DNA from: a virus
IMG/VR virus record: IMGVR_UViG_3300044816_000082
Coordinates: 1-64,000 of that record
DNA length: 64,000 nt
Reading direction: 5' to 3' (one strand)
Under the pieces are notes generated by a model. That model was not told where the DNA came from. It saw only the letters and a program-made list of their open reading frames with translations, and did not search any database. A program made the position numbers and the translations under genes. Positions 20,314 to 56,785 of the stretch are shown one piece after another. The number at the start of each line of letters is the position of its first letter. The first letter of the stretch is position 1.

Positions 20314-20361
20314 GTCAACCGGGTATACACTAGGTGTGCAGGTTGGGGTAGCACCTCGACC
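20314..20361 (+). promoter_or_regulatory. Early promoter box and 5' hairpin leader, copy 1
   Basis: Box GTCAACC GGG TATACA (20314-20329). Twelve bases on, an 8-base-pair stem GGTTGGGG/CCTCGACC with loop TAGCA (20341-20361) would sit at the very 5' end of the message; GAGGAAGG and the ATG at 20387 follow. Confidence 0.65.
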
Positions 20362-20386
20362 GCTCACGGACCCGAGGAAGGACCTC

Positions 20387-20674
20387 ATGACCACCCTGAC
20401 CCCCACCGCTGAGCGTCTCGCCGCGCACATGATGGCCGCGATCAAGGTCGACATCGGGGTGGGATCGGTCCCGGTCGACGTCCCCGACTTCTCGGCGCTG
20501 CACGACACCGTCGACGCCAACACCTACGTGCTCGACGCCGCTCAGGCACTTGGGATCGAGTGGGGTGAGACCGGGATGCCGACCGAGGACGCATACGCCC
20601 TGTTCAACGCCGCTGAGAGCCTCGTTGATGAGGCGCTCAAGACGGCACTCACGGAACGGGTGCTCCTGCCGTGA
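20387..20674 (+). CDS. Small acidic helical protein, unknown
   Basis: 95 residues, ATG after GAGGAAGGACCTC, first gene of an operon driven by early leader copy 1. Predicted mainly helical and acidic, with no cysteines or membrane segment. No family recognised. It overlaps the next gene by 4 bases. Confidence 0.75.
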   Translation: MTTLTPTAERLAAHMMAAIKVDIGVGSVPVDVPDFSALHDTVDANTYVLDAAQALGIEWGETGMPTEDAYALFNAAESLVDEALKTALTERVLLP

Positions 20675-20997
20675 CCGGCCCGACCCCGGACAACCCGTAC
20701 GCGACGTCGAGTTACGCGAAGGCCGCGCGGGAGCGCAAGGCGATCTCCATAGAGACCGCCTTGCGGCTCGGGGGTTTCGACAGCGAACACACAGCGCTGC
20801 TGACCCCTGAGCAGCGCCGTCAGGTTGAACGTGCGGCGGGGACACGACCTGCCTCCGACGCCACGTGGGACCTCGTCCTGCGGTTCATGCGGGACGCTGA
20901 GCAGCGTCCCGCGCCACCCAACCCAAAAGAGGAAGTCCATGACGCCGTACCCGCCCCTACCGGACCCCGACGACCCGGAGCCGGACACACGATCTGA
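20671..20997 (+). CDS. Small protein, unknown
   Basis: 108 residues, GTG overlapping the previous stop. The first two thirds are charged and helical (SSYAKAARERKAISIETALRL, a possible DNA-contacting helix); the end is proline-rich and overlaps the next gene by 59 bases in another frame. The last 20 residues may therefore be shaped by that overlap. No family recognised. Confidence 0.65.
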   Translation: MTGPTPDNPYATSSYAKAARERKAISIETALRLGGFDSEHTALLTPEQRRQVERAAGTRPASDATWDLVLRFMRDAEQRPAPPNPKEEVHDAVPAPTGPRRPGAGHTI

Positions 20998-21085
20998 GGA
21001 CGTGCTGCTCGGGGCGCTCGTTCTTCTCACGACGTTCGGTGTCTTCGCCTTGTTCATCGTCAACGCCGTGCGGGGGATCCTGTGA
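20939..21085 (+). CDS. 48-residue membrane protein
   Basis: ATG after AAAAGAGGAAG, inside the end of the previous gene. An acidic proline-rich N-terminus is followed by one membrane helix (LLGALVLLTTFGVFALFIV) and a short basic end. Overlaps the next gene by 4 bases. Unknown role; small early membrane proteins often alter the host envelope. Confidence 0.6.
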   Translation: MTPYPPLPDPDDPEPDTRSEDVLLGALVLLTTFGVFALFIVNAVRGIL

Positions 21086-21315
21086 CCCGACGTCAACTCA
21101 CCGACCACGACCGAGCCCTAGCAGCGTTGGCCGTCGCGGAGTCCCGGTACGCCCGGGTGAAGGCACGCCACGACGCGGCGATCGCGGCGGCGCAGGCGAT
21201 CGAAGCTGACGTGACGGCCGCAGCGGCGGTCGTCACGTACGCCGCGGAACACCCCGCGCTGCGACAAGCCACCCTCCCGACCGCGGGGCCGCCCGACGGT
21301 TGGCCCGCAGAATGA
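21082..21315 (+). CDS. Small coiled-coil protein, unknown
   Basis: 77 residues, GTG overlapping the previous stop. Almost entirely helical and Ala-rich (about residues 8-58), ending in a proline-rich tail. No family recognised. Confidence 0.65.
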   Translation: MTRRQLTDHDRALAALAVAESRYARVKARHDAAIAAAQAIEADVTAAAAVVTYAAEHPALRQATLPTAGPPDGWPAE

Positions 21316-21319
21316 CGCG

Positions 21320-21529
21320 ATGCTCCGTTACTTCGCCCGCGAGTCCATCGAGTTCGCAGCGCCGGTAGTGGCGGCGTGGGGCGCGAGCGTCCCACGCATC
21401 AGCCGCGTCGACCTGCGGTGCCTCGGCACGACCAAGAGCGGTCACCCTCGTCACCCTCTGTACGTCAAGGGCGACCACCCGCTCGTGCCCTTCCCATCAC
21501 TCGGTAGCGGCGGTGAGGAGCATGTCTGA
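21320..21529 (+). CDS. Truncated DUF1643-like protein
   Basis: 69 residues, ATG 4 bases after the previous stop. The pattern AWGAS, then LGTTKSGHPRHPLYVKGD and PLVPF matches the C-terminal end of DUF1643 phage proteins, which are normally about twice as long; the upstream sequence in this frame shows no further homology. It ends in LGSGGEEHV, encoded by a repeat shared with other small genes. It may be a remnant or a minimal version. Identification is from memory of the family pattern. Confidence 0.5.
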   Translation: MLRYFARESIEFAAPVVAAWGASVPRISRVDLRCLGTTKSGHPRHPLYVKGDHPLVPFPSLGSGGEEHV

Positions 21530-21530
21530 G
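21498..21530 (+). repeat. Gene-junction repeat, copy 1
   Basis: Starts CACTCGGTAGCGGCGGTG and ends ATGTCTGAG, 33 bases. It holds the last codons and stop of one gene and the start (Met-Ser-Glu) of the next. Near-copies at 54246, 54732 and, altered, at 54529, 60363 and 61168. Confidence 0.8.
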
Positions 21531-21760
21531 CAGCGCTCCTGTGTGGAGACAGAGGTCGAACTCGTCTTGCGTCAGCACCTTCCGGTCCCCCTTGAGCGCA
21601 GCGCCGGGGTTTTGTGCCTCTGCGACCTGACGCGCTCGTACAACGGTCCCGTGGGTCAGCGGCTGCACGTTGCTGCTGAACTGCGGGAGGGCTGGCTTGC
21701 TGAGCGATCTGCCTGTCGAGCCAGACGACGGGATCACTACGTGGTGACCGCGCGACTCTC
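21522..21760 (+). pseudogene. Possible small gene after junction repeat, no proper end
   Basis: Starts at the ATG inside the junction repeat (Met-Ser-Glu-Gln). The first 60 codons look coding (LCLCDLTRSY and QRLHVAAELREGWL resemble small phage proteins with a conserved HVAAEL helix). The frame has no stop until 22322, where it would run through the opposing minus-strand gene and into recT, so the true end is lost or the gene has decayed. The end given is approximate. Confidence 0.3.
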
Positions 21761-21767
21761 TCTTTCG

Positions 21768-22139
21768 TCAGGCCGCAGCGAGCGTTCCTGCGTCACTGCG
21801 GCGGTAGTTCATCACCGCCATGCTGCCCGTCGCGGCGTTCAGCCCGTCGTCACTGAACCGCTCGCCGGGCGCAACCTGCTCGCGGGTCGGCAGGCCGTAC
21901 CCGCCGTACCGCGACGTGAGCGCACGGACCGCCACGACGACGCCGCCGGGATAGAGGTCGGAGCTACGCCCGGTGTCCGGGACGACCCACACTTCACTCT
22001 TGTGGCCGGCACCGAGTTGTGGTGCCTGACCGATGACCATGCCGGTCCGTACCTCGACGGTCCCGTTGCCGCGAACGTGCTTCCACTCGACGGTCGATCC
22101 GACACCGCCGGGTTTCGGGGTGAAAGGCTTACGGGCCAT
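21768..22139 (-). CDS. Lone minus-strand gene, unknown, possible regulator
   Basis: 123 residues, ATG after GAGGGAAGGAAACC on the minus strand. It is the only intact minus-strand gene of the window and has its own early promoter box and 5' hairpin (22158-22208). The N-terminus MARKPFTPKPGG is basic; the middle is beta-rich (VEWKHVRGNGTVEVRTGMV, then SEVWVVPDTG), like a small SH3 or KOW-type barrel. Its divergent position next to recT suggests a control role, which is inference. Confidence 0.7.
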   Translation of the reverse strand: MARKPFTPKPGGVGSTVEWKHVRGNGTVEVRTGMVIGQAPQLGAGHKSEVWVVPDTGRSSDLYPGGVVVAVRALTSRYGGYGLPTREQVAPGERFSDDGLNAATGSMAVMNYRRSDAGTLAAA

Positions 22140-22157
22140 GGGGTTTCCTTCCCTCGA

Positions 22158-22208
22158 GGGACGGAGAGCTGCTCCGTTCCCTGCCTACTAGTTGTATACC
22201 CGCTTAGC
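22158..22208 (-). promoter_or_regulatory. Early promoter box and 5' hairpin leader, minus strand
   Basis: On the minus strand: GCTAAGC GGG TATACA (22208 down to 22193), then a 9-base-pair stem (GGG plus ACGGAG with CTCCGT plus CCC, one bulged A, 22181-22158) and loop CAGCT. The start codon at 22139 follows a purine-rich site. Confidence 0.65.
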
Positions 22209-22250
22209 GAGTGTGCATGCGTTCCCTGCACAACTGTCGGACTCGTGTCG

Positions 22251-22287
22251 TACGGTTCTACCCGCAGGCCCGCCGAGCGAGCGGGCC
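22251..22287 (+). promoter_or_regulatory. recT leader: weak -10 and 5' hairpin
   Basis: TACGGT (22251-22256) is a plausible -10. Ten bases on, a perfect 7-base-pair stem GGCCCGC/GCGGGCC with loop CGAGCGA (22267-22287). The loop is identical to those of the leaders at 25426, 51277 and 56718. Confidence 0.55.
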
Positions 22288-22305
22288 GCTACAGGAAGGC
22301 GTTAG

Positions 22306-24768
22306 ATGACCATGACCGATGAGGTAGCGCGGCAGGGTGCTCAGCTCACGTCCCGCGAGCACGGGGCGCTCACGATCAGTCCCGAGCAGACGTGGTGGAC
22401 TGAGGCGCAGAACGCGGCGCTTGAGAGCATCGGTCTTCGCGACACCCCGAACGGGGACAGGGTCGCGTTCCTGCACCTGTGCCAGACGACCGGCCTCGAC
22501 CCCTTCCGTCGGGAGGTCTATCTGATCGGCCGGAACGACCGCACGGCACCGAGCGGTAAGAAGTGGACCGCACAGACCGGCATCGACGGGTTCCGGCACC
22601 TCGCGGAGCGGACCGGGGTGTACGGCGGGAAGGTCGGCACGCAGTGGTGCGGACCCGACGGTGAGTGGCGCGACGTGTGGCTGTCGACCGAACCGCCGTC
22701 CGCCGCGCGGGTCGCGGTCGCCCGGACCGACCTCGAGCACCTCGTGTACGGCGTCGCTGTCTACACCGAGTTCTGCCCGATGCTCGATGTGTGGACCGGC
22801 TCAGGGAACGCTCGCCGTAAGACTGGCGAGCAGGTCCCCGGTGACATGTGGATCAAGATGCCCTCACATATGTTAGCTAAATGCACCTCGGGCGACACCG
22901 AGGTGCTGACCGATCACGGCTTCCGCCGGTTCGACTCCGTGGCCGAGCACGAGCGCATCCTCATGGTCACCGAGCAAGGGCTCGTCGCGACCGACGCCCG
23001 GCCGTTCCGTCAGCCGTACAGCGGCCCGATGGTCACCTGGCGCGCGGGAGGTGGCGCAACCATCGACCTCGTGATGTCCCCGAACCACGACGTGCTGCTC
23101 AGCTCGGGCGAGAAGGTCGAAGCCGCCGACCTGCACGCCCGTACCACGGTCCGCAGCCCGGACAGCATTCCGCTCACGGTCACCGGCTCCCGGCCCGATG
23201 CTGACGTGAAGGACGACGCGCTGTACGCCGCCGCCGTGTACCTCGCGGACGGGTCCGACTACAACAAGACCGGCTTCGTTGTCGCAGTCTCACGCCCGAG
23301 GAAGGTGGACGCAATCCGTACCTTCGGTGGCTACCTTGACGAACGAATCCGTCGCTCGGCTGGCGACACCGCGACGTCCGCGAGCGGCCGGGTCATCACG
23401 ACCCGCAGCGACAAGCGCGTATTCGTCTACGAATGGACGGCGATCGCCGGGACGCCCGTGCGCCCGGGCAAGCAGCTCGACATCGACGCTCTGCTGGCGC
23501 TATCGCCGCGGCAGGCTCGGCTGCTCGTTGACACGTGGGCATGGTTCGACGGAGACACAGCGCACCCCGGCGGGACACGACGCATCAAGGTCGGCGACCC
23601 GCACCTCGCGGACGCCTTTGAAGTCGCCGCCGTTCACGCCGGGTACTCACTGTCCCCGCGCCGCCTACGCCATTCCGACCTCGGCGACGTGTGGGAGTTC
23701 ACGCTCTCGACTAAGACCGAGGTCCACGTCCGGCGTCGGAACGAGACAGGCGCTCGCGCGCTCGCGGGGCTAGACATTGAGCCGACCAACCCCAGCGGTG
23801 AGGTGTGGTGCGTCACCGTGCCCTCTCACGTCATCGTCATCCGACGTGAGGGCCTGTCCTGCCTCACCGGCCAATGCGCGGAAGCCCTCGCGCTGCGGAC
23901 CGCGTTCCCGCGCCAGCTCGCGGGGCTGCGGACCAGCGATGAGATGCAGTTCGCTGACGCGAAGCTCCGTAACGCTGAGGCTGACCTGGCGGCGCAGAAG
24001 GCCGCGCGGGAACTCGCCCGGGCTGAGGGCGCGAGCCGGCCGTGGGCGAAGGACGCCGACACGGTCGTCGTCGATGAGAACGGGGTGGTCATCTCGGGTG
24101 GGGACGTGCCGCTCCCGAGCCATGACGAGTTGTGGCATGACCTGACCGAGCAGGCACGGGTCCTGGGCAAGACGATCACCGCCCACACGACTCGATGGGT
24201 CGCGGCGCACAAGAAGAACGCCGACGAGGCCACCGATGAGGAACTGTACGAGTTCGTCGAGAGCCGTCGGGAACAGGTTGGGCGGCACCTCGCGGAGCAC
24301 CCCGACGTCGCACCGCCGACGCCGTACGTCGCACCTGAGCAGGAGGGCACCGCTGCCTCCACCGTCCCCTCCAACGGACCGGACGAGGACCCGGCGGTGC
24401 CCTCCGACGGGCCGGCCGTGCCTGTCGGTGACCTGTCGGTGAAGCCCCCGAAGATCCCACCCGCACCGAAGACCGACGGTCACCGTTCCGAGTTCGGGGA
24501 CCCGGTCCCGGTCGACATCGATGAGCGCCGCACCGCGCGTCGGTACTACATCGACAGCACCGACGACCTGTCGCCCACCGAGGAGGCCGACGCGTGCCGT
24601 CGGTCCGCGGCGATCGACGCGATGCTCGCGGAGGACGTCGGCCCGGCTCACAAGGACTACGACACGCTCGTGGAGAGCGCCGGGTTGTGGACCACCGAAG
24701 CCGAGATGGCGGAGACACGGATCGAGGTCGATGGTCAGGAGAACCTGTTCGACCCCGACGCTGAGTAG
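22306..24768 (+). CDS. recT: RecT/Bet single-strand annealing recombinase interrupted by an intein
   Basis: 820 residues, ATG after AGGAAGG. Residues 1-192 and 524 onward form a RecT/Bet annealing protein (LHLCQTTGLDPFRREVYLIG, GFRHLAERTGVYGG, then AEALALRTAFPRQLAGL), which pairs DNA ends during phage recombination and replication. The intein (193-523) splits the conserved MLAK-CAEALALR segment. After splicing the product has 489 residues, including a charged, proline-rich C-terminal extension of about 250 residues. The Cas4/RecB-like nuclease at 25469 is the expected exonuclease partner. Confidence 0.9.
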   Translation: MTMTDEVARQGAQLTSREHGALTISPEQTWWTEAQNAALESIGLRDTPNGDRVAFLHLCQTTGLDPFRREVYLIGRNDRTAPSGKKWTAQTGIDGFRHLAERTGVYGGKVGTQWCGPDGEWRDVWLSTEPPSAARVAVARTDLEHLVYGVAVYTEFCPMLDVWTGSGNARRKTGEQVPGDMWIKMPSHMLAKCTSGDTEVLTDHGFRRFDSVAEHERILMVTEQGLVATDARPFRQPYSGPMVTWRAGGGATIDLVMSPNHDVLLSSGEKVEAADLHARTTVRSPDSIPLTVTGSRPDADVKDDALYAAAVYLADGSDYNKTGFVVAVSRPRKVDAIRTFGGYLDERIRRSAGDTATSASGRVITTRSDKRVFVYEWTAIAGTPVRPGKQLDIDALLALSPRQARLLVDTWAWFDGDTAHPGGTRRIKVGDPHLADAFEVAAVHAGYSLSPRRLRHSDLGDVWEFTLSTKTEVHVRRRNETGARALAGLDIEPTNPSGEVWCVTVPSHVIVIRREGLSCLTGQCAEALALRTAFPRQLAGLRTSDEMQFADAKLRNAEADLAAQKAARELARAEGASRPWAKDADTVVVDENGVVISGGDVPLPSHDELWHDLTEQARVLGKTITAHTTRWVAAHKKNADEATDEELYEFVESRREQVGRHLAEHPDVAPPTPYVAPEQEGTAASTVPSNGPDEDPAVPSDGPAVPVGDLSVKPPKIPPAPKTDGHRSEFGDPVPVDIDERRTARRYYIDSTDDLSPTEEADACRRSAAIDAMLAEDVGPAHKDYDTLVESAGLWTTEAEMAETRIEVDGQENLFDPDAE
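22882..23874 (+). other. Intein with LAGLIDADG-type endonuclease domain, inside RecT
   Basis: 331 residues. N-terminal splice block CTSGDTEVLTDHGF with Cys1; block B-like MSPNHDV with His at residue 261 of the precursor. Two LAGLIDADG-type helices, YLADGS (Asp315) and WAWFDGDT (Asp415), both retain the acidic residue, so the homing endonuclease may be active. The C-terminal block VWCVTVPSHVIVIRR ends in LTGQ before Cys+1: Gln replaces the usual Asn and Gly the penultimate His. Confidence 0.9.
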
Positions 24769-24796
24769 TACCCGCGCGTTGTCCCACTGTGACAGG

Positions 24797-24841
24797 TACA
24801 CGGTGTGGCAGGCTGCGGCCACCTTCGCGGGTAGCACCCGC
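24797..24841 (+). promoter_or_regulatory. Leader with hairpin before the 24874 gene
   Basis: A box-like GGTACACG (-10 candidate 24797-24802) and a 5-base-pair stem GCGGG/CCCGC with loop TAGCA (24827-24841), the loop of copy 1. AGGAGG and the ATG at 24874 follow. Confidence 0.45.
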
Positions 24842-24873
24842 ACCCGACCCGACCCCGTCCCAGGAGGACAATC

Positions 24874-25374
24874 ATGGCTGAGGCATTCAACGGACTACGG
24901 CTGCTCGCCGGGCTCCCGAAAGCGAACGGACTCGCGCCGCTCGCGGACGACCTCGTAGCAGCACCGGACAGCATCGTGGTGGTCGTCGCGACCCTCAAGG
25001 TCAAGGACCTCAACCATCACGTCGAGACGGACAGCACGACCGCGGTCACCCGTTTCCAGCAGATCGAGGCGATCGACGGCGCGGCGCGGCAGACGGTCCT
25101 CGACATCTTGACCAAGACCCGGGAGGACCGCACCGGGGAGAAGGCGATGATCTCCCCGAGTGGGGAGATCGTGGTGCAAGAAAGCCCTGCGGCGGAGCGG
25201 GTCACCGGCGGGGACAGTCCCGACGCGGCCGTCGAGGTCCCGTCATCGGCGTTGGGGGTGGCGTTCACCGAGAAGGGTGACGACGGGTGGGAAGACCCTG
25301 AGCCGCCGTTGCCCGTCAAGGATCTCGCGGCGGAGAAGGCCAAGCGGGCTGCACGGCGCCCCCCGAAGCCGTAA
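24874..25374 (+). CDS. Recombination-module protein, unknown
   Basis: 166 residues, ATG after CCCAGGAGGACAATC. The N-terminal 80 residues look globular (SIVVVVATLKVKDLNHHVE, then AARQTVLDILTKTRED); the rest is acidic, proline-rich and probably disordered, with a basic end. Placed between RecT and its likely nuclease partner, it may be an accessory recombination protein. No family recognised. Confidence 0.7.
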   Translation: MAEAFNGLRLLAGLPKANGLAPLADDLVAAPDSIVVVVATLKVKDLNHHVETDSTTAVTRFQQIEAIDGAARQTVLDILTKTREDRTGEKAMISPSGEIVVQESPAAERVTGGDSPDAAVEVPSSALGVAFTEKGDDGWEDPEPPLPVKDLAAEKAKRAARRPPKP

Positions 25375-25401
25375 TCCCAGCCTGATCTGTCAGCGCTAGG
25401 C

Positions 25402-25442
25402 GCTAACGTGGTTGACGATCGACGGCCCGGCGAGCGACCGGG
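25402..25442 (+). promoter_or_regulatory. Early promoter box (variant) and 5' hairpin leader
   Basis: GCTAACG TGG TTGACG (25402-25417), a variant shared only with 53425, then a 5-base-pair stem CCCGG/CCGGG with loop CGAGCGA (25426-25442). GAGGAGG precedes the GTG at 25469. Confidence 0.6.
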
Positions 25443-25468
25443 ACGAGGAACGCACGAGGAGGACACCT

Positions 25469-26671
25469 GTGACCATCATGCCGCTGACCGAACTTCTGGC
25501 CGGCACCCCGGCGCGCTCGGAGTGCCGCGAACCTGAGTGCGACCGGCCGATCCGGCGTCGGGGCCTGTGCTCGCGGCACTATCGGCAGGCGCGGCAGGTC
25601 GAGCGTTGGCGTGAGCTGGCACCGACCGCTCCGTCGCTCAAGGACGCCATGCGCATAGCGGACGAGATGCGGGACCGGTCGATGAAGACGGCCCGGGCAC
25701 GTGCCGAAGGCCGGTTCGGAGTCGGTCCGTCGGACCTCACGACGTGCCGGAAGCAGATCGAGTACCGGGAGAACCCCCCCGAGGGCTACGTCCCTGACCC
25801 GGTCGACAAGGGCGCCGCGTACGTCGGGACCATGATCCATGAGGGGATCGCGGCGGTCCGGCGCATCCTGTACCCGTGGTGTGAGATCGAGCGGGAGATC
25901 CACGTCCCGGGACTTGATGAACCGGGGCACGCGGATGTGTGGGACCCGATCGCTCACCGGGTCGAGGACGACAAGAGCGCCGGGGAGTGGGCGTGGGAGA
26001 AGATCGGACGGGACGGCGCCCGCGAGGAAGACATCGACCAGGCGATGCTGTACGCCCTCGGGTTGGCTGAGGAAGGGCTGACCGTCGTGACGGTGCGGTT
26101 GAACTACATCCGGCGAGCCAACGGCGAAGTCGAAGTGTTCGACTTCCCCTACGACCGAGGTCGGGCGCTCACCGCCTTGGGGCGGTTGCACACCATCCTC
26201 GATGACCTGACCGACGGCCGCGAGCTGCCCCGTGATCGGGAAGGACCGAGCATCGACCCGATCTGTGCCAGGTATTGCCCGGCGGTCAGACACTGCTGGG
26301 ACCTGCCGAACGTGCCGCAAGGCCGGACACCCGAGTCGTGGGTCAAGGTCCGCGATGACGAGACGATCGCGGCGTTGCTCGTCGACTACAACACGGCCCC
26401 GACCCCGGAGGCCAAGAAGCGGATCCGGGTGCTGCTGACCGGGTTGGACGCGGGGAGGTACGGCGACTTGATCCTCGGGTGGCGGGGTGGGAAGACAACC
26501 GAGGTGCAGGACCATGAGGCACGCTTGGTGCAGCTTGAGGCGGCGCTGCTCGCAGGGACGCCGCTGTCAGAGTTGGAGTACCCGATGAAGTCTGTGACGA
26601 GCAACGTGTCGATCAGCGTCGAGGCTGTCCGGCAGGCCACCCTCGACGCCGAAGCCGCGGAGGGACAGTGA
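25469..26671 (+). CDS. Cas4/RecB-type PD-(D/E)XK exonuclease
   Basis: 400 residues, GTG after GAGGAGGACACC (ATG 25478 also possible). An N-terminal zinc-finger-like CREPECDRPIRRRGLCSRHY is followed by the nuclease core: TTCRKQ (about 93), GTMIHEG (about 121), GHADVWD (about 153), EDDKSA (about 166) and CARYCPAVRHCW (about 266-277). The four Cys outside the core are those that hold an iron-sulfur cluster in Cas4/AddB-like nucleases. It would resect DNA ends for RecT. Confidence 0.82.
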   Translation: MTIMPLTELLAGTPARSECREPECDRPIRRRGLCSRHYRQARQVERWRELAPTAPSLKDAMRIADEMRDRSMKTARARAEGRFGVGPSDLTTCRKQIEYRENPPEGYVPDPVDKGAAYVGTMIHEGIAAVRRILYPWCEIEREIHVPGLDEPGHADVWDPIAHRVEDDKSAGEWAWEKIGRDGAREEDIDQAMLYALGLAEEGLTVVTVRLNYIRRANGEVEVFDFPYDRGRALTALGRLHTILDDLTDGRELPRDREGPSIDPICARYCPAVRHCWDLPNVPQGRTPESWVKVRDDETIAALLVDYNTAPTPEAKKRIRVLLTGLDAGRYGDLILGWRGGKTTEVQDHEARLVQLEAALLAGTPLSELEYPMKSVTSNVSISVEAVRQATLDAEAAEGQ

Positions 26672-27003
26672 GCCGCCCGGTCCTGGTCATCGTGCCGGTC
26701 ATCATCGGGCCGGCGCTCGTCAGCGACCGGGTGTGGTGGCTCAAGCAGCACCAAGACCGGTTCGCGGAGTTCCTCGCGGCGGTCTGCCTGAACGAGGGGG
26801 TTTACGCCCCGTCCTACGTTCCGCAGTGGTGGGTGGTGCTACCCGGTGATGCGCACCCCTTCGCGGGTGTCGAGGAGGTCACAAGCCTGTTCGACGGGGA
26901 CATCGTGGAGCAGGCTCTCGAGACGATGGACGATCTGCTCCCGCAGGGCATCGGGGTCGTGTGGAGCGTCCTCGAGGTCGCGAACCGGGGGCGTGACTCG
27001 TGA
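26668..27003 (+). CDS. Small protein, unknown
   Basis: 111 residues, GTG overlapping the nuclease stop. The N-terminus is hydrophobic (PVLVIVPVIIGPALV), perhaps a buried strand rather than a membrane helix, followed by a Trp-rich middle and an acidic helical end. No family recognised. Part of the nuclease operon. Confidence 0.65.
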   Translation: MSRPVLVIVPVIIGPALVSDRVWWLKQHQDRFAEFLAAVCLNEGVYAPSYVPQWWVVLPGDAHPFAGVEEVTSLFDGDIVEQALETMDDLLPQGIGVVWSVLEVANRGRDS

Positions 27004-27563
27004 CCCCCGATGCGTTGCGCTGGGCCGCGCTCGGGCAGGCACTCGCGCGGCGCCTGGACCTGACGAACACCCTCAAGGCAGCGACGTGGTGGCCGCACCC
27101 GGGCGGGTTCAGCGACGGCGACGCGATCCTGGGTGTTGGGGACCTGCAGAGCATGTTGAGCTACGACTCCGGGCTGTGGGACGCCGCCGGGGCCCCGTGG
27201 GAGTTCGTCCTGCAATTCGACTTCGCCGGTTACCCACTGGGGGACCAGGAACGGGCGGTCCTGGCGTGGCTGGCCTTGAACGACCCCGCGTACGGGCACC
27301 GTGCCACTGTGGAGGCGCTAGCGCGCGCCTACCGACACCGACCTATGCACCCGACGGGATTCGGCGTCACAGAGGCGTGCTCAGCCTGTTTGGGGGGTGT
27401 TGGGGTCGGTGACCCGGGGGAGGAACGGGCGTGCGGGTGCTGGGGGTTGAGCCAACCGGTCTGCGGGACGTGCGTTGATCCGGCGAGCCACCGGCACCTC
27501 ACCCTCGCGGAGTGGCCCTGCGAGGACGCCCGGGCGCTGGTCCGGATCCACACCCCGGGATGA
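27000..27563 (+). CDS. Cys-rich protein, possible zinc binder
   Basis: 187 residues, GTG overlapping the previous stop. The first 115 residues are a mixed domain with many Trp; the C-terminal part has CSACLGG, CGCWG, VCGTC and a Cys/His-containing end, which would suit one or two zinc sites. Unknown function; overlaps the next gene by 4 bases. Confidence 0.65.
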   Translation: MTPDALRWAALGQALARRLDLTNTLKAATWWPHPGGFSDGDAILGVGDLQSMLSYDSGLWDAAGAPWEFVLQFDFAGYPLGDQERAVLAWLALNDPAYGHRATVEALARAYRHRPMHPTGFGVTEACSACLGGVGVGDPGEERACGCWGLSQPVCGTCVDPASHRHLTLAEWPCEDARALVRIHTPG

Positions 27564-28156
27564 ACGCCTCCGAGGTACTCCAAGCGCTACTCACCCGGCA
27601 CGAGCCGCCTCGGTGGGCTGCCTTTCCAGAGATGCGCATGGGGAAGATCGACACGCTGCGAGGGATCGACAGCCAACGCTGCGACCTGTGGACTGTTGAC
27701 CTGTGGCCGAGTTCCCTCGAGCGGATCGCATACGAGATCAAGGTCAGCCGTGCGGACTACGTCCACGAACTCAAGCACCCTGAGAAGCGTCGGCTCGCCA
27801 TGCTCATCAGCAACAGGTACTGCTTCGCTGTCCCGGCCGGCCTGATCCGACACAACGAGGTCCCCCTCGACTGCGGATTGGTCGAGGTCCACCCGAACGG
27901 GATCCGTGAGGTCGTCAGCGCACCCTGGCGTGACATCCCCCCACCGACCGCACGTTTCATCGCAGAGCTCGCTCGGCGCGCGATCGCCCCGGAGCAGCTC
28001 AGAGCCGCGGAGGTCCGACGTCGGGTCAGCATGCTCGAGGACACCGAACGTCGTCTCAAGATCGAGATCGGCCGGCAACGCGCTGCTCTCAGCGGCGCGC
28101 TGAGCACACCCGGGCAGGTCGCTGCTGCTCGGGCTCTGTCCCACATCGACCCGTAG
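27560..28156 (+). CDS. PD-(D/E)XK-like protein (MmcB-like)
   Basis: 198 residues, ATG overlapping the previous stop. The core DLWTVDLWPSSLERIAYEIK followed by VSRADYVHEL, then KRRLAMLISNRYCFAVPAG, has the acidic...E-x-K pattern of PD-(D/E)XK proteins of the MmcB type, linked to DNA repair in bacteria. The C-terminal 70 residues form a charged helix. It sits in the recombination operon. Enzymatic activity is inferred from the pattern only. Confidence 0.6.
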   Translation: MNASEVLQALLTRHEPPRWAAFPEMRMGKIDTLRGIDSQRCDLWTVDLWPSSLERIAYEIKVSRADYVHELKHPEKRRLAMLISNRYCFAVPAGLIRHNEVPLDCGLVEVHPNGIREVVSAPWRDIPPPTARFIAELARRAIAPEQLRAAEVRRRVSMLEDTERRLKIEIGRQRAALSGALSTPGQVAAARALSHIDP

Positions 28157-28165
28157 GAGCTCCGC

Positions 28166-28825
28166 GTGGAGTACACCGTCCGTCCCCACACCCCCCCGTG
28201 GCCGCAGCGCTACGCGCCGCGGCAGGGTGCCTCCACGTTCCGTGCGTCGTGGAGCGACACCCTCCGGTTGCTCAGCTCCGAGATATGGACGCTTGACGGA
28301 CGACAGGTCATCACCCAACTCGACGTCAAGGCCGATGACGTCCAGCAGGACGGGACGCTCCGCGCCGATGCCCGCGTCGGTCACCCCGGGGTGAGGATCT
28401 CGTTCCGCACCCCAGCGGCGCCCCTGATGTTCGCGACCGATGAGTACCCCGATTGGCAGATGAACGTCCGCGCGATCGCCCTCACCCTCAAAGCGCTCCG
28501 CGCCGTCGACAGGTACGGCATCATCCCCGAGGCGGCGCAGTACGCCGGGTTCCGGGCGAGCCCGACCGGAACAGGTGTGGACGAGTCACCGATGTGGACG
28601 TCAGCGGAGGCTGCCGCGCGTCACCTGGCCGACCTCGCGAACCGAGCTGGACTGTCAGTGACCAGCGAGATGCTCCTTGACAGCCCCGCGCAGCTACGCC
28701 GGGCATGGCTGGTCGTGGCGAAGACCGTGCATCCTGACGTTGGAGGGATGACCTTGGACTTCCAGAACGCTGAGGCAGCGCAGCGCAGGGTCGACGCCGA
28801 CCAGCGATCGAGGGGGGTGACATGA
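28166..28825 (+). CDS. Protein with C-terminal J-domain-like HPD segment
   Basis: 219 residues, GTG after GTAGGAGC. The N-terminal 130 residues are a beta-rich unknown domain. The C-terminus has LRRAWLVVAKTVHPDVGG, then NAEAAQRRVDAD: an HPD motif followed by GG and a helix, like the J domain of DnaJ co-chaperones. It may recruit host DnaK to replication complexes. The helix before HPD is shorter than in canonical J domains. Confidence 0.6.
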   Translation: MEYTVRPHTPPWPQRYAPRQGASTFRASWSDTLRLLSSEIWTLDGRQVITQLDVKADDVQQDGTLRADARVGHPGVRISFRTPAAPLMFATDEYPDWQMNVRAIALTLKALRAVDRYGIIPEAAQYAGFRASPTGTGVDESPMWTSAEAAARHLADLANRAGLSVTSEMLLDSPAQLRRAWLVVAKTVHPDVGGMTLDFQNAEAAQRRVDADQRSRGVT

Positions 28826-29259
28826 CCTACCCCGACCCGAACAGGTTCCGGGGTCGCCTCAAGGACTACCTCGCCTGGGCCGCCGACGGGTTCCGACCGA
28901 CGCCGCTCTGGTGCGTGAAGCACTGGGTTCCGTGTCCCGTCGAGGGGAAACCGGGGCTGCTCGTCACGATCATCTTGCAGACCGAGTTGATGAGCCAGAT
29001 GCCCGCCGACGTCGGGGACGCGACCGGGATGAACTCGTGGCAGGCGAACCGGGTCACCCCGCTGTGCTGCGAACTCGGAGACGAGCTCATGGCGTGGCTG
29101 TGGGAGGAGGTCGACGCACCGCACTGCGGTGTCCGACCTCCCGCCGGCCACCGATGGCAGCACGGCCGGGTCTGCTGGTACCGCCCCGGACATCTGTTCG
29201 GCCACGAATGGGACAACCCCGGATCGATCTTCGCCCTGCGCCCTGGTGGGGCCGGCTAG
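28822..29259 (+). CDS. Small Trp/Cys-rich protein, unknown
   Basis: 145 residues, ATG overlapping the previous stop. Contains WCVKHWVPCPVEG, LCCELGDEL and a His/Cys-rich second half (PHCGVRPPAGHRWQHG, then RPGHLFGHEW), so metal binding is possible. No family recognised. Confidence 0.7.
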   Translation: MTYPDPNRFRGRLKDYLAWAADGFRPTPLWCVKHWVPCPVEGKPGLLVTIILQTELMSQMPADVGDATGMNSWQANRVTPLCCELGDELMAWLWEEVDAPHCGVRPPAGHRWQHGRVCWYRPGHLFGHEWDNPGSIFALRPGGAG

Positions 29260-29507
29260 TGGCGGGCATGGCCGCGGTCGCGTGCCGATCATGCCGGGCA
29301 CGGATTGTGTGGGCTGTCACGGTGAACGGAAAGAGCATGCCTGTCGACTACGAACCCAACCCCGACGGCAACGTGATCCTCGACGCTTCGACGTCTGGTC
29401 CGCCCGTCGCGATCGTCAGGAGCGCCCCCGCTGAGCCTGGGGAGATCCGTCGGATGTCACATTTCGCAACTTGCCCGCGGGCCGGGTTGCACCGCAGGTC
29501 GCGGTGA
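29259..29507 (+). CDS. Small zinc-ribbon-like protein
   Basis: 82 residues from a GTG overlapping the previous stop by one base (ATG 29268 is an alternative). CRSCRARIVW at the N-terminus and HFATCP near the end are the likely Cys/His ligands; between is a beta-rich stretch. Last gene before the replication leader. Confidence 0.6.
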   Translation: MAGMAAVACRSCRARIVWAVTVNGKSMPVDYEPNPDGNVILDASTSGPPVAIVRSAPAEPGEIRRMSHFATCPRAGLHRRSR

Positions 29508-29534
29508 GACGTGGAGGTTGCGCCAGAACGGGCG

Positions 29535-29587
29535 TAACGTCCCTGCGGGCAAAAGGGAGGGCCGGTCCGCTGACGACGGACCGGCCC
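29535..29587 (+). promoter_or_regulatory. Replication operon leader: TAACGT box and 11-base-pair hairpin
   Basis: TAACGT (29535-29540) may be a -10. A perfect 11-base-pair stem (29559-29569 with 29577-29587) has a 7-base loop CTGACGA. No T run follows, so it is not a normal terminator; it resembles the other leader hairpins in size. GGAGG and a TTG start (29625) follow. Confidence 0.5.
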
Positions 29588-29624
29588 AAAGCTCCCCACC
29601 CGTCACCCAACGGAGGAACCGGCC

Positions 29625-29681: not shown

Positions 29682-30457
29682 GCCTCCGCGCGACCCTGTG
29701 GGCTCTCGACGACGCACCGACTGACGACCCCGCGGAGGTGGTCGTCCTGCTCGCTCTAGCCGACGACGCGGACACTGAGGGCCGAAACGCGTGGCCTTCA
29801 CAGGTCCGCCTCGCGTCCCGATCTCGCTGCAGCCTGAGGACCGTGCAGCGTCGCCTCGTGGCGCTCGAGGACCGTGGCCTCATCGTCCGAAGCGAGACGA
29901 CTGACTCCCGGTACCAGTCACTCCCTGTGAGGAAACGGCCCGTCTGCTACGAGCTCTCACTGCACTTGACACGTCAGCCTGACGCGTCAGGGGAGACCGC
30001 CGACCCCTCGTCTGACACGACAGATTCCGCATTTTTGACACGACAGTCAGTGGCGGACAACCCGAAGACCAACCCGTACGTTCAAGAGCAACCCGTTAGG
30101 GCCGCGAAACGCGGCACAAGAATCGCGGATCCCTTCACGCTCACCGACGGTGACATCGCCTTCGCTCGAGAGCGTCGTGTTGTGACGAGCCGCCTCGAGC
30201 TCGAAGTGATGCGTGAGGCATTCGTGGCGCACCACGCCGCGAAGGGCACGGTCAGCAAAGACTGGCGGGCGTCATGGCGAACCTGGGTGCTGAACGCGGT
30301 GAAGTTCGGGGGCGGATCGGGTACGGTGCGCCGAGCGGTTGTGGGTGCGAACTCGCAGCACGAGGGACCGAGCAGGGCAATGACCGGAGCCGAGTGGCTC
30401 GCAGAAGGCACGGCCGGGGTAGCTCCCGGGCCGGTACAGGAAGGGCTACCGCTGTGA
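29678..30457 (+). CDS. Replication initiator-like winged-helix protein
   Basis: 259 residues, GTG overlapping the leader peptide. N-terminal winged helix (about 40-75; SLRTVQRRLVALEDRGLIV) as in phage replication initiators of the O/DnaD type. A disordered middle rich in Ser/Thr follows, then a C-terminal domain with GTVSKDWRASWRTWVLNAV, the helix common in these proteins for contacting the helicase loader. The next gene is that loader, which strengthens the call. Confidence 0.75.
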   Translation: MSLRATLWALDDAPTDDPAEVVVLLALADDADTEGRNAWPSQVRLASRSRCSLRTVQRRLVALEDRGLIVRSETTDSRYQSLPVRKRPVCYELSLHLTRQPDASGETADPSSDTTDSAFLTRQSVADNPKTNPYVQEQPVRAAKRGTRIADPFTLTDGDIAFARERRVVTSRLELEVMREAFVAHHAAKGTVSKDWRASWRTWVLNAVKFGGGSGTVRRAVVGANSQHEGPSRAMTGAEWLAEGTAGVAPGPVQEGLPL

Positions 30458-40843: not shown

Positions 40844-40864
40844 TCGCCGGGTAGCCACCGGGCG
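40828..40864 (+). promoter_or_regulatory. Leader with -10-like TACCCT and 5' hairpin
   Basis: TACCCT (40828-40833), then a stem of six pairs with a bulged G (40845-40850 with 40858-40864) and loop GTAGCCA, identical to the loop at 54167. GAGGAGG precedes the GTG at 40890. Confidence 0.45.
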
Positions 40865-41833: not shown

Positions 41834-41883
41834 GCTAACCGGGTATACACTTAGTGCAGGGGCCGGACGTGCGATCCGGTCCC
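41834..41883 (+). promoter_or_regulatory. Early promoter box and 5' hairpin leader
   Basis: GCTAACC GGG TATACA (41834-41849), then a 9-base-pair stem GGGGCCGGA/TCCGGTCCC (one G-T) with loop CGTGCGA (41859-41883), then GGAAGG and the ATG at 41900. Confidence 0.7.
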
Positions 41884-42478: not shown

Positions 42479-42520
42479 GCTTACCGGGTATACAATCAGT
42501 AGGCAGGGTTGCTCCCCGCC
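42479..42520 (+). promoter_or_regulatory. Early promoter box and 5' hairpin leader
   Basis: GCTTACC GGG TATACA (42479-42494); stem GGCAGGG/CCCCGCC with one mismatch and loop TTGCT (42502-42520); GGAAGG, then the ATG at 42538. Confidence 0.65.
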
Positions 42521-43093: not shown

Positions 43094-43117
43094 GGGGGCG
43101 GGTAGCTACCCGCCCCC
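43094..43117 (+). promoter_or_regulatory. Internal leader hairpin, no promoter box
   Basis: Perfect 9-base-pair stem GGGGGCGGG/CCCGCCCCC with loop TAGCTA, followed by AAGGAAGG and the ATG at 43139. It occurs inside an operon, so the hairpin is kept without the promoter. Confidence 0.6.
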
Positions 43118-43554: not shown

Positions 43555-43597
43555 GTCAACCCGCTATACAATGAGGGTGAGAGGGGTAGCGCCCCTC
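43555..43597 (+). promoter_or_regulatory. Early promoter box and 5' hairpin leader
   Basis: GTCAACC CGC TATACA (43555-43570) with CTGACA 16 bases upstream of TATACA, so both promoter halves are good; stem GAGGGG/CCCCTC with loop TAGCG (43581-43597); GGAAGG; ATG at 43617. Confidence 0.7.
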
Positions 43598-51262: not shown

Positions 51263-51295
51263 TACTCTGCGGCGATGTCGGGCGAGCGACCCGAC
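51263..51295 (+). promoter_or_regulatory. Leader with -10-like TACTCT and 5' hairpin
   Basis: TACTCT (51263-51268), then a 6-base-pair stem GTCGGG/CCCGAC with loop CGAGCGA (51277-51295), GGAGGAAGG and the ATG at 51315. Confidence 0.55.
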
Positions 51296-51314
51296 GTGGA
51301 GGAAGGCACCTGCC

Positions 51315-53424: not shown

Positions 53425-53460
53425 GCTAACGTGGTTGACAATGAGGGGGCAAGCGGCCCC
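53425..53460 (+). promoter_or_regulatory. Early promoter box (variant) and 5' hairpin leader
   Basis: GCTAACG TGG TTGACA (53425-53440), stem GGGGC/GCCCC with loop AAGCG (53446-53460), GAGGAGG, ATG at 53481. Confidence 0.6.
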
Positions 53461-53480
53461 TTCCGTCGAGGAGGACACCC

Positions 53481-54140: not shown

Positions 54141-54190
54141 GCTAACCGGGTATACACTTGTTGTAGGGGACCGGGTAGCCACCGGGTCCC
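54141..54190 (+). promoter_or_regulatory. Early promoter box and 5' hairpin leader
   Basis: GCTAACC GGG TATACA (54141-54156), stem of eight pairs with one bulged G (54167-54174 with 54182-54190) and loop GTAGCCA, then GCGAGGAGG and the ATG at 54206. Confidence 0.7.
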
Positions 54191-54763: not shown

Positions 54764-54764
54764 G
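54732..54764 (+). repeat. Gene-junction repeat, copy 4
   Basis: 33 bases, CACCCGGTAGCGGCGGTGGG to ATGTCTGAG. Same frame relation between the two genes as copies 1 and 2. Confidence 0.8.
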
Positions 54765-55046: not shown

Positions 55047-55068
55047 AAGCGGGTTCGTGGCGCACCCC

Positions 55069-55119
55069 GTCAACCGGGTATACGATGGTGGGCAGCCCGG
55101 TCGGGATAGCCACCCGACC
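55069..55119 (+). promoter_or_regulatory. Early promoter box and 5' hairpin leader
   Basis: GTCAACC GGG TATACG (55069-55084), perfect 7-base-pair stem GGTCGGG/CCCGACC with loop ATAGCCA (55099-55119), AGGAGG, then ATC at 55139 where an ATG is expected. Confidence 0.65.
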
Positions 55120-55138
55120 CGAACGCTAGGAGGACCTC

Positions 55139-55276
55139 ATCGCATACCTACGGCGCCTGCTCTGCGGTGCCCTCGGCCACCGTCCGTCCCTAACCGAATG
55201 GGTCACCACCGACAAGCGCAGCGTGCTCCGTCCCTGCACACGTTGCGGTGCCTACCTCAAGAGAGAAGCCCGATGA
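55139..55276 (+). CDS. 45-residue Cys protein with apparent ATC start
   Basis: AGGAGG 4 bases upstream of ATC; promoter and leader spacing point to this codon. The product (AYLRRLLCGALGHRPSLTE, then CTRCGAYLKREA) has the LCxxxGHRP plus C-x2-C pattern of other phage proteins, including the one at 47661. No ATG, GTG or TTG in frame upstream would give this protein. Either AUC initiation or a lost ATG. Confidence 0.5.
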   Translation: MAYLRRLLCGALGHRPSLTEWVTTDKRSVLRPCTRCGAYLKREAR

Positions 55277-55632
55277 CGACTGATGTACCCCCTGACGCCG
55301 GCCGTGCTGTCCTCGACGTCGAGCTCGTCCTGATGGACGCCGCCGCGAAGTTGTACGGGAGCTTCCGTGACGCCGCAGAGGCGCAACCCGATGCCAGGGT
55401 GACTCCGGAAACCATCGACGCGCTGCGGATCAGGACCGCCGATGAGATCGAGACAGGAGCGAGTGAGGTCGCCCTGAAACTCCGCAACGCGGTCCGGGAC
55501 CGGATCCGGGAACGCAGGACGAGGGACGGACTCGAGTGGCATGAGGACGCATGCAACCTGCCTACGTCCGAGACCGAGGTGCTGTGCATCCTCGCGGTCG
55601 GGCACGTCGGTGCTCACCTACCGGAGGTCTGA
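55273..55632 (+). CDS. Small helical protein, unknown
   Basis: 119 residues, ATG overlapping the previous stop by 4 bases. Mainly helix (VLDVELVLMDAAAKLYGSF, VALKLRNAVRDRIRERR) with two Cys near the end. No family recognised. Confidence 0.65.
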   Translation: MTTDVPPDAGRAVLDVELVLMDAAAKLYGSFRDAAEAQPDARVTPETIDALRIRTADEIETGASEVALKLRNAVRDRIRERRTRDGLEWHEDACNLPTSETEVLCILAVGHVGAHLPEV

Positions 55633-55635
55633 CCC

Positions 55636-56148
55636 GTGGCGACGTTCACGCACAATCGGTGGGTCGAACGACGCGCCGTCGCCCACCTCGGTAGCTCTGA
55701 CGACCTGTCGCGTGGGTACTTCCAACTCGCCGTCGACGCCGCGGCCGAAGCCGGGCTGTCCCCCACAGGCAAGTGCACCGGCCACGTCCGCGACAGTGAC
55801 CCGAGCAAGGGCGAGACACCCGACGGTGTGATCATCACGATCGACGTCCAATGCGAGGACCACGACGAGAAGGCTCCCGCCATGGTGGCCGCGTTCAGCC
55901 CCGACGAGCTGCTCCGGGAGGCACTGTTCAACCCTGGACAGGTATGTGTCGACACCGGCCGGCACACGTTCCTCCCCGCCGACAGCGAACGGTTCCGGAC
56001 CTACCCCGAGTCGTTCGCGACGTGCCTCGCGTGCGGGGCCGTCGTCACCGCCTACGCGATCGCGACCTCCGCCGGCCTCGCCTGGTGCGCCTGCTCCCGT
56101 TGGGAACAGGCCGACCTGATCAAGGCCGGGTGCATCCACGGTGTCTGA
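55636..56148 (+). CDS. Protein with Cys pairs, unknown
   Basis: 170 residues, GTG. Beta-rich middle (GVIITIDVQCEDHDE) and a C-terminal CLACGAVVTAY, then LAWCACSRWEQAD that may bind metal. No family recognised; overlaps the next gene by 8 bases. Confidence 0.65.
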   Translation: MATFTHNRWVERRAVAHLGSSDDLSRGYFQLAVDAAAEAGLSPTGKCTGHVRDSDPSKGETPDGVIITIDVQCEDHDEKAPAMVAAFSPDELLREALFNPGQVCVDTGRHTFLPADSERFRTYPESFATCLACGAVVTAYAIATSAGLAWCACSRWEQADLIKAGCIHGV

Positions 56149-56785
56149 CGCGCTCCTCGAGCGGGCTCTCGCTCCCGTCCAAGCTCTCGCCTTCGCGGTT
56201 CACACCCTGGACGCGGCGGAGGTTGAACGGACGATCGGGTGGCTCCGTCAACACGCACTCGCGGACGCCGCCCTGGTCCTGCTCGCGGGGATGGTCGACA
56301 TCGACCGCCCGGTCAGCGATCTCCTCGCGTGGAAGGACGAGCAGATCGCAGCGCAAGCCCGCGCAACCGCGCGCCGGGGCGCACGGCTCCTACCGTGCGG
56401 GACCCCAGCGGCGTACGCCCGGCACCGCAAGCACGGTGAGGAGCCATGCGAGGCGTGCATGATCGCGAACCGGCTCAGGAACCGAGACCGCTACCAGCAG
56501 CAACTGCTCGGCGGGAAGGTCGTTCGTAAGCCCCTCGCTCCGTGCGGGACCCACGCCGCGTACACCCGGCACAAGAAACGAGGGGAACCTATCGATGAGG
56601 TCTGCGACCTCGGGGAGAGCGCCTACCAGCACGAGCGGTACGTCGCCCGGACCGGTCGAGATGATGCCCCTCGACGCCCCCGAAACCGCCCGCTAACCGA
56701 CTATACTCCGGTGGTCGGGTCGAGCGAACCGTCGGAGGAAGGACACCCCCGCATGACCATCACCTCGTCAAGGAGCTCCCCATGA
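56141..56785 (+). CDS. Protein with duplicated PCGT zinc-like motif
   Basis: 214 residues, GTG. First 90 residues helical. Then two related units: PCGTPAAYARHRKHGEEPCE and PCGTHAAYTRHKKRGEPIDE, a duplicated Cys/His module known in many actinophage proteins. The last 30 codons run through a promoter box and hairpin (56692-56730), so the C-terminal end may have grown by reading through regulatory DNA. Confidence 0.65.
   Translation: MSDALLERALAPVQALAFAVHTLDAAEVERTIGWLRQHALADAALVLLAGMVDIDRPVSDLLAWKDEQIAAQARATARRGARLLPCGTPAAYARHRKHGEEPCEACMIANRLRNRDRYQQQLLGGKVVRKPLAPCGTHAAYTRHKKRGEPIDEVCDLGESAYQHERYVARTGRDDAPRRPRNRPLTDYTPVVGSSEPSEEGHPRMTITSSRSSP
56692..56730 (+). promoter_or_regulatory. Early promoter box and weak hairpin leader
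   Basis: GCTAACC GAC TATACT (56692-56707), a weak stem around loop CGAGCGA (56718-56730), GGAGGAAGG, then ATG 56753 (10 codons) whose stop overlaps the ATG at 56782. It lies inside the end of the previous gene. Confidence 0.5.

Follow-up and report, generated by a model that had tools for sequence, protein, structure and literature searches.

A promoter box followed by a small hairpin with a variable stem and a constant [A/U]GC-centered loop is dispersed over the genome of IMG/VR virus record IMGVR_UViG_3300044816_000082, positions 1 to 64,000 of which are referred to here as the window (Table 1). Hairpins with a 5- or 7-nucleotide (nt) loop of this kind lie behind 11 of 13 boxes, compared with 1.2% of random sequence windows (P ~5e-20). 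The boxes tested comprise 8 standard boxes in the window, 3 standard boxes in the remainder of the 90,880-bp record (71511, 72059, and 75415 in full-record coordinates), and 2 variant boxes (25402 and 53425). The loop core behind the boxes is AGC in nine cases and TGC in two, as reported in a preliminary description of the window, and the remaining 62 trinucleotide cores do not occur at all. Since that description covered the window only, the hairpins behind 2 of the 3 boxes outside it, one of them at 72082, represent an out-of-sample success. A structured RNA element inside this genome is well supported by stems that differ yet pair, by the conserved loop, and by the orientation and position of the hairpins.

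The standard box reads GYYAACC-NNN-TATACANT, and the copies in the window score 23 to 31 bits with a weight matrix for which the top score in ten simulated genomes was 16. Ten copies of one box had been listed previously. Eight of them are standard, whereas those at 25402 and 53425 read GCTAACGTGGTTGAC, lack TATACA, and reach at most 12 bits on the standard matrix. The hexamer TATACA had also been taken as the −10 element; the actual −10 is more probably TAnnnT (TACACT, TACAAT, or TACGAT), located two bases into that hexamer, and no conserved −35 element was found upstream of the boxes. For the variant boxes, a putative −10 element TAACGT within the first half is as likely. The box is partly self-complementary, and a 12-bp extension upstream of the −10 is conserved among the boxes. 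A sigma-B-like −10 element, GGGTAT, was rejected because the GGG is not conserved (CGC, CGG, and GAC also occur).

The stems are GC-rich and 5 to 12 bp long, and the 7-nt loop class has an invariant bulged A. Because the first base pair is located 5 to 12 nt past TAnnnT in all nine standard boxes bearing a hairpin, the leader hairpins are predicted, from the position of the −10 alone, to be 5′-terminal on their messages. TAnnnT occurs at the same distance for 3 of the 8 hairpins without a box (background, 1%; P = 5e-5). The hairpin keeps an almost constant distance both from the predicted start of transcription and from the start codon. The start codon said to follow each hairpin was found at a distance of 12 to 32 nt, except that the 55069 leader has no ATG, GTG, or TTG, and the frame behind its ribosome-binding site opens with ATC. 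Of the ten boxes said to be followed by a hairpin, one is an exception: the 56692 leader, with a stem of only 3 to 4 pairs, scores 0 in the hairpin test. Outside the window, the box at 75415 is bare. Among the further hairpins described previously, those ahead of recT (22267) and of genes 24874, 40890, and 51315 have AGC-centered loops, whereas the hairpin at 47661 has the loop TAGGCGAC, which differs from the [A/T]GC loop, and the element ahead of gene 43139 is a palindrome with a 4- to 6-nt loop. The hairpins at 30411 and 20888 are additional ones of the same kind. In this GC-rich genome of a bacterial virus, about a dozen messages are predicted to open with the same type of hairpin. A role of the hairpins as terminators was rejected, as they are located behind promoters and are not followed by a T-run.

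Table 1. Promoter boxes, hairpins, and the helix-turn-helix gene in the window
Feature	Position	Strand	Location or basis
Promoter box GTCAACCGGGTATACACT	20314..20331	+	pattern and weight matrix, 30 bits
Leader hairpin, loop TAGCA	20341..20361	+	ahead of gene 20387
Start-proximal hairpin, loop GAGC, no box	20888..20913	+	ahead of gene 20939
Leader hairpin, loop CAGCT	22157..22181	-	ahead of minus-strand gene 21768-22139
Promoter box GCTAAGCGGGTATACAAC	22191..22208	-	weight matrix, 27 bits
Leader hairpin, loop CGAGCGA	22267..22287	+	ahead of recT (22306); TACGGT ends 10 nt upstream
Hairpin, loop TAGCA, no box	24827..24841	+	ahead of gene 24874
Variant box GCTAACGTGGTTGACGAT	25402..25419	+	sequence; <9 bits, standard matrix
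Leader hairpin, loop CGAGCGA	25423..25445	+	ahead of exonuclease gene 25469
Hairpin, loop TAGCT, no box	30411..30433	+	within end of preceding gene, 20 nt ahead of helicase-loader gene 30454
Leader hairpin, loop GTAGCCA	40845..40864	+	ahead of gene 40890; TACCCT ends ~9 nt upstream
Promoter box GCTAACCGGGTATACACT	41834..41851	+	31 bits
Leader hairpin, loop CGTGCGA	41859..41883	+	ahead of gene 41900
Promoter box GCTTACCGGGTATACAAT	42479..42496	+	30 bits
Leader hairpin, loop TTGCT	42502..42520	+	ahead of gene 42538
Promoter-less hairpin, palindromic loop region GTAGCTAC	43094..43117	+	ahead of gene 43139
Promoter box GTCAACCCGCTATACAAT	43555..43572	+	27 bits
Leader hairpin, loop TAGCG	43581..43597	+	ahead of gene 43617
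Leader hairpin, loop CGAGCGA	51275..51297	+	ahead of gene 51315; TACTCT ends 6 nt upstream
Variant box GCTAACGTGGTTGACAAT	53425..53442	+	12 bits, standard matrix
Leader hairpin, loop AAGCG	53443..53463	+	ahead of gene 53481
Promoter box GCTAACCGGGTATACACT (same sequence as at 41834)	54141..54158	+	31 bits
Leader hairpin, loop GTAGCCA	54166..54190	+	ahead of 23-codon frame at 54206
Promoter box GTCAACCGGGTATACGAT	55069..55086	+	28 bits
Leader hairpin, loop ATAGCCA	55099..55119	+	ahead of 45-codon frame starting ATC (55139)
Promoter box GCTAACCGACTATACTCC	56692..56709	+	23 bits
Loop CGAGCGA, short stem only; weak or decayed hairpin	56718..56730	+	
76-aa helix-turn-helix protein	56782..57012	+	downstream of 56692 box; HTH_31, E 0.0018, below curated cut-off

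The stems differ and yet stay paired, as stated in the preliminary description. Covariation scores among 15 hairpins, which are copies within one genome and not orthologues, were 0.71 and 0.55, compared with 0.21 and 0.16 after shuffling, and exceeded all 500 shuffles; 11 of the 15 hairpins were chosen via the box and not via pairing. Changes on both sides with pairing kept occurred in 6 of 7 and 5 of 8 pairs, and covariation collapsed once the partners were slid by one column. Covariance model R1, from which 7-nt loops had been withheld, found the leaders with such loops at 55100 and 51277. Model R2, from which 5-nt loops had been withheld, found the hairpin at 30412. These matches were weak (E values of 0.2 to 1.2). 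No Rfam family matched in the window at the gathering threshold.

The conserved RNA element proposed previously is well supported within the genome, whereas its conservation in relatives is weak. The box is absent from the records of the 16 relatives searched. Of its two exact forms, in 2.9 million viral contigs, GCTAACCGGGTATACA gave two chance matches, in AT-rich phages, and GTCAACCGGGTATAC gave eleven unlinked matches, all without a leader hairpin. Protein comparisons (RecT, minor head protein, portal, major capsid, and AAA ATPase) retrieved only distant phages and one 14-kb contig, which has a capsid identity of 63% and contains structural genes and no boxes, and the leader-adjacent proteins 43617 and 72123 had no phage match. 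The major capsid protein suggests an actinobacterial host. In Rainydai, GAL1, Lululemon, and prophiT49-1, the homologue of 40890 follows its upstream neighbor so closely that a leader would have little or no space, and inspection of leaders in Rainydai and Lululemon revealed other elements. A covariance-model search, the check proposed in the preliminary description, gave no convincing foreign match in 0.7 Mb of relatives (best E value, ~0.5); one match at this level was a leader hairpin of Cantare with the loop GUAACA. Two distant phages (IMGVR_UViG_3300030376_007544 and IMGVR_UViG_3300020470_003436) have TTGACA-17-TAnnnT followed by a 5′-terminal hairpin with an AAGU[C/U] loop, a ribosome-binding site, and a start, but they differ from the present virus in using another promoter, in bearing the hairpin at a minority of promoters only, and in having the core AGU instead of AGC. 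The AAGU-loop hairpin is missing from the orthologous leaders in four other contigs. A further hairpin, at 5393 of an AAGUN-loop phage, has the loop AAGUG but was not counted, as its sequence overlaps that of the promoter. The AAGUN hairpins of the two distant phages are only suggestive as counterparts, and it is rather unlikely that the element is a phage-wide RNA tag by which a loop-reading factor would mark the messages of a regulon for stability or translation over those of the host, with a diverged form (AAGUN, perhaps UAACA) in distant actinophages.

Our tentative reading, which we put slightly short of an even chance, is a dispersed promoter-plus-leader cassette with a 5′-terminal stem-loop shielding the message, an insulated ribosome-binding site, and a loop that is either read by a factor or constrained by the fold. 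RNA polymerase would start no more than a few bases from the hairpin, giving the message a stem-loop at its 5′ end, and this stem-loop would shield the end from 5′-end-dependent decay and keep the ribosome-binding site clear of larger structures in the 68% GC transcript. The constancy of the loop would reflect either recognition by an RNA-binding factor of the host or the phage or a requirement of the fold itself. In addition, a single phage regulator probably acts at the box extension, in which case the cassette would define a regulon switched together. A stem that is free and a loop that is fixed suggest that some factor in the cell reads the loop for message protection or translation, and the hairpin may serve in 5′-end protection or factor binding, as first proposed. 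Stabilization of Escherichia coli messages by 5′-terminal stem-loops is established, according to the citation of Emory et al. (1992) in PMC3997798. The ompA and papA leaders of E. coli, as cited there, resemble those described here in having a hairpin predicted a few bases from the message start and then a free ribosome-binding site, whereas they belong to single genes and the present element is multi-copy. Starts behind the hairpins have an unpaired probability of 0.56, compared with 0.45 for other starts with a ribosome-binding site (P = 2e-4), and shuffling of the upstream part reduces start accessibility in most leaders; the gain owed to the hairpin itself is ~0.04 and is negative in three leaders. 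Counting against the cassette are the small size of this gain, the unexceptional folding energy of the leaders, the bare box at 75415, and the restriction of the covariation to copies in one genome. Moreover, the hairpins at 20888, 24827, 30411, and 43094 have no recognizable promoter and would be internal, and pure end protection needs no constant loop; stabilizing hairpins of the ompA/papA type are not known to require one.

Alternatively, the hairpin may be a translational operator or activator site, where a phage- or host-encoded RNA-binding protein on the [A/U]GC loop, beside the ribosome-binding site, would repress or activate the entire gene set at one infection stage. The conserved loop on a free stem and the near-fixed distance to start codons, which the promoter-less hairpins share, are consistent with such a site, and the bulged A of the 7-nt class is reminiscent of the iron-responsive element, in which one pair forms within the loop and a 3′ base is unpaired. 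Identity with the iron-responsive element was rejected, as the loop and bulge differ and no Rfam match was found. However, no known RNA-binding family was detected among the ~100 predicted proteins scanned, and the hairpin ends at approximately −12 to −25, in most cases slightly beyond the footprint of the ribosome, so that simple occlusion is not obvious; translational control is possible but on balance doubtful. Antitermination, in which the nascent hairpin would modify the polymerase directly or with a phage factor and let it transcribe past pauses and terminators within long operons, fits the predicted location at the extreme 5′ end of many transcripts but is quite unlikely. The boxB element of lambda, the model for action with a phage factor, has a GNRNA-type pentaloop, whereas the single hairpins here have N[A/U]GCN loops. 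The put element of HK022, likewise a phage RNA element and located where early transcripts begin, is a precedent for a 5′ RNA element sufficing alone, but it has two stems and a specific, compact fold in place of one small hairpin (PMC9378689). Moreover, no excess of terminators to be overcome was found, with 4 intrinsic terminators in the 40- to 58-kb region against 4.3 expected by chance, and an element acting on the polymerase would have no need to adjoin every start codon, yet the promoter-less copies are placed in this way.

The inverted repeat might also act as DNA, either as an operator or as a cruciform or single-strand binding site, with the RNA being irrelevant. Its position directly behind the partly self-complementary box would suit such a role, which is nevertheless very unlikely: an operator would keep its arms and vary its middle, whereas here the arms vary and the center is constant, and the orientation is always that of the gene, the minus-strand copy included. 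An artifact of composition, by which hairpins form easily in 68% GC DNA and were picked by eye, can hardly be entertained. The folding energy of the leaders is indeed unremarkable for their GC content, as the mean of the leaders is equaled or bettered by ~19% of random 42-nt windows, but the box-anchored test, with its low background and the absence of all other loop cores, and the hairpins found outside the window contradict this explanation.

The idea is not wholly new, since stem-loops upstream of start-associated repeats (CR3/CR4 conserved repeats) have been described in cluster M mycobacteriophages (Bongo, PegLeg, Rey, Estes, and Aziz) (PMC7953290). As in cluster M, the genome has numerous stem-loops with variable but paired stems, and each copy lies shortly before a start codon; in the Estes stretch read for comparison, the stems likewise differ and stay paired. 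The cluster M stems, however, are long, with no shared loop core visible, whereas the present stems are short and the loop is constant, and most copies here lie directly behind a shared promoter box, unlike those of cluster M. In cluster M, the start is also preceded by a constant CACGGAGAAGGGA-type repeat, of which the Estes stretch has 13 copies, whereas no ACACACGGAGAAGGGA-type repeat occurs here between stem-loop and start on either strand with up to 2 mismatches. The start-associated sequence (SAS) of cluster K, GGGATAGGAGCCC, is invariant, spans 13 bp, and lies at the ribosome-binding site, and hairpins in the cluster K ESAS have little support according to the authors (PMC3203893). The likeness to SAS/ESAS lies in dispersed repeats tied to the translation starts of non-structural genes; GGGATAGGAGCCC itself does not occur here with 0 or 1 mismatch and occurs once with 2.

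Since 2011, several actinophage clusters have been reported to contain start-associated repeats and stem-loops, for which a proven role was not found in the literature. Because the present element is small, conserves only a loop of a few bases, and comes with a recognizable promoter, stem-swap and loop-swap experiments on it are simple. A loop-binding factor, if one exists, would be a way for the phage to label its own messages. The helix-turn-helix protein encoded at 56782 is a candidate box-binding regulator, and its gene overlaps the stop of a 10-codon leader frame by ATGA.

The 90,880-bp virus record, covered as the 64-kb window plus the remainder, encodes a tape measure protein, an endolysin, RecT, an exonuclease, DNA methyltransferases, a portal, and major capsid proteins. 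The host is likely actinobacterial because the capsid protein shares ~44% identity with those of Gordonia phage Chidiebere and Brevibacterium phage Cantare, and the earlier label of actinophage is therefore reasonable. Portal and head-morphogenesis domains are fused in a single protein with a long additional C-terminal part, and two tyrosine integrase pieces lie widely separated on opposite strands. The tRNA-Arg (gcg) called by ARAGORN is probably either spurious or a gene that overlaps the frame around it.

A weight matrix of the repeated promoter motif (the box), built from the sites in the preliminary description and run over the whole record, identified 11 sites scoring 23 to 31 bits, 8 of them inside the window; the maximum across 10 simulated sequences of matching dinucleotide statistics was 16 bits. 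The conserved block is C-G[CT][TC]AACC-nnn-TATACAnT. Of the ten copies described for the window, eight were recovered, and the variant copies at 25402 and 53425 share GCTAACGTGGTTGAC and lack TATACA. The usual actinobacterial -10 is TAnnnT, which starts two bases into the originally defined hexamer at 8 of the 11 sites, and a conserved -35 was not found in the 45 bases upstream of the boxes. Most copies are partially self-complementary (8 to 10 of 15 positions), a hint that the box would suit a dimeric regulator. The helix-turn-helix protein encoded directly behind the 56692 box could be a candidate regulator acting on the box. A 10-codon leader frame behind the same box shares an ATGA overlap with the start of this gene, and the two possibly form a coupled, autoregulated regulator gene.

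Coordinates of features in the virus record and in related phages
Feature	Location	Detail
Boxes outside the window	71511, 72059, 75415	record positions
Helix-turn-helix protein	56782-57012	76 aa
10-codon frame plus helix-turn-helix gene	56753-57012	window
Frame behind 55069 leader	55139-55276	45 residues, begins ATC, CxxC motif
Box-less hairpins with TAnnnT	22267, 51275, 40845	22267 precedes recT
tRNA-Arg (gcg) call	10812-10898	within 1569-codon frame 10627-15336
Portal/head-morphogenesis fusion	L007:2249-7705 (record 65749-71205)	1818 aa
Tyrosine integrase pieces	10-720; 59576-59962(-)	236 residues; 128 residues
Cantare hairpins	L016: 10866, 25705, 30289	intergenic
Rainydai element	L078 (Rainydai 15552-33914)	repeated
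GTTGGTGGGG-type stem	L076 ~5861; L051 ~2480	two phages

The 48 bases behind each box were searched for hairpins with at least 4 pairs and a 5-nt or 7-nt loop centered on [A/T]GC. Such a hairpin, previously ascribed to all ten boxes described for the window, was present at 11 of 13, including 2 of the 3 boxes outside the window that the first description had not covered, and was found in 1.2% of 20,000 random windows (binomial P = 5e-20); two boxes have no qualifying hairpin. When all 64 loop cores were counted in the same windows, AGC occurred nine times, TGC twice, and every other core never, which bears out the loops as first described. Genome-wide at a stricter threshold, AGC-core hairpins lay 8 to 40 nt upstream of a predicted start in nine cases and any other core at most twice, with hairpin orientation matching gene orientation in every case.

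The stems differ yet stay paired, as had been proposed, in a set of 15 hairpins that are all copies from one genome, 4 of them picked by pairing rather than by box. The eight copies of the 5-nt class (loops TAGCA, TAGCT, TAGCG, TTGCT, AAGCG, and CAGCT) had 89% of cells paired, both-sided changes somewhere in six of seven pairs, and a covariation score of 0.709 versus 0.208 after shuffling. For the seven copies of the 7-nt class (CGAGCGA, CGTGCGA, GTAGCCA, and ATAGCCA), 92.9% were paired and the score was 0.548 versus 0.164; neither score was reached by any of 500 shuffles. Because positions 1 and 6 of the 7-nt loop mostly pair (five copies have C-G, and one each has G-C and A.C), this loop is better seen as a [G/U][A/U]GC tetraloop that sits atop one extra pair and is flanked on the 3' side by an invariant bulged A.

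Wherever a standard box carries a hairpin (nine cases), the first pair lies 5 to 12 nt past the end of TAnnnT. If transcription starts some 7 nt downstream of the -10, the 5' end of the transcript would fall within a few bases of the hairpin, which is thus predicted to be 5'-terminal. TAnnnT also lies 6 to 10 nt upstream of three of eight box-less hairpins (background, 1%; P = 5e-5), and no visible promoter was found for the other five. Between the hairpin and the start codon lie 12 to 32 nt, which include a ribosome-binding site. The leader at 55069 (box, hairpin, and AGGAGG) has no ATG, GTG, or TTG behind it, and the frame there possibly reflects an ATC start codon or a sequence error.

The best reading is that the predicted 5'-terminal hairpin would shield the message and leave the ribosome-binding site unobstructed, and that a loop-specific factor would read its loop. 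Start regions behind leaders are unpaired more often (0.56) than other starts are (0.45; P = 2e-4), and shuffling the upstream part lowers this value by only ~0.04 on average. A role as an antitermination element is weakened because intrinsic terminators in the 40- to 58-kb region are not above chance. A scan of ~100 predicted proteins found no known RNA-binding family, so the loop reader, if any, would be host encoded or of unknown family.

The proposed search of related genomes gave no convincing match to covariance models of the 5-nt-loop (R1) or 7-nt-loop (R2) hairpins in 0.7 Mb; the box was absent from the records of 16 relatives, including Chidiebere and Cantare, and collection scans returned only chance matches. 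Two distant phages (IMGVR_UViG_3300030376_007544 and IMGVR_UViG_3300020470_003436; ~42% capsid identity) have TTGACA-17-TAnnnT promoters that lead directly into hairpins (loops AAGUU, AAGUC, and AAGUC), after which come a ribosome-binding site and a start codon. The AAA ATPases encoded behind two of these leaders are orthologous (71% identical), yet the stems of the two leaders are unrelated; one further leader carries a tandem pair of hairpins, both with AAGUA loops. The hairpin is missing from four other orthologous leaders and from most promoters of these phages. Three Cantare hairpins, GCCGGG-[GTAACA, ATAACA, GTCACA]-CCCGGC, lie 20 to 26 nt before starts. Together, these hairpins are suggestive of a wider theme and are not proof of it.

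Stem-loops upstream of start-associated repeats are known in cluster M mycobacteriophages (PMC7953290), and in our own reading of the sequence of Estes, a cluster M phage, the stems vary and pairing is kept. Both elements thus have variable, paired stems upstream of starts, whereas the element in the window has short stems, a constant loop, and a linked box, the cluster M loops being judged from the Estes sequence. The window element also lacks the cluster M and cluster K repeats, and on these grounds it represents a variant of an already known kind of stem-loop. In Streptomyces phage Rainydai, a repeated element, TCGCAAG-n-TTACAGGGGTTATAATGAGACCCCTAC, precedes several small genes and contains an inverted repeat whose loop holds the -10. 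In one phage, a GTTGGTGGGG-type stem forms a 5' leader hairpin; in a second phage, such a stem precedes the promoter of the orthologous gene.
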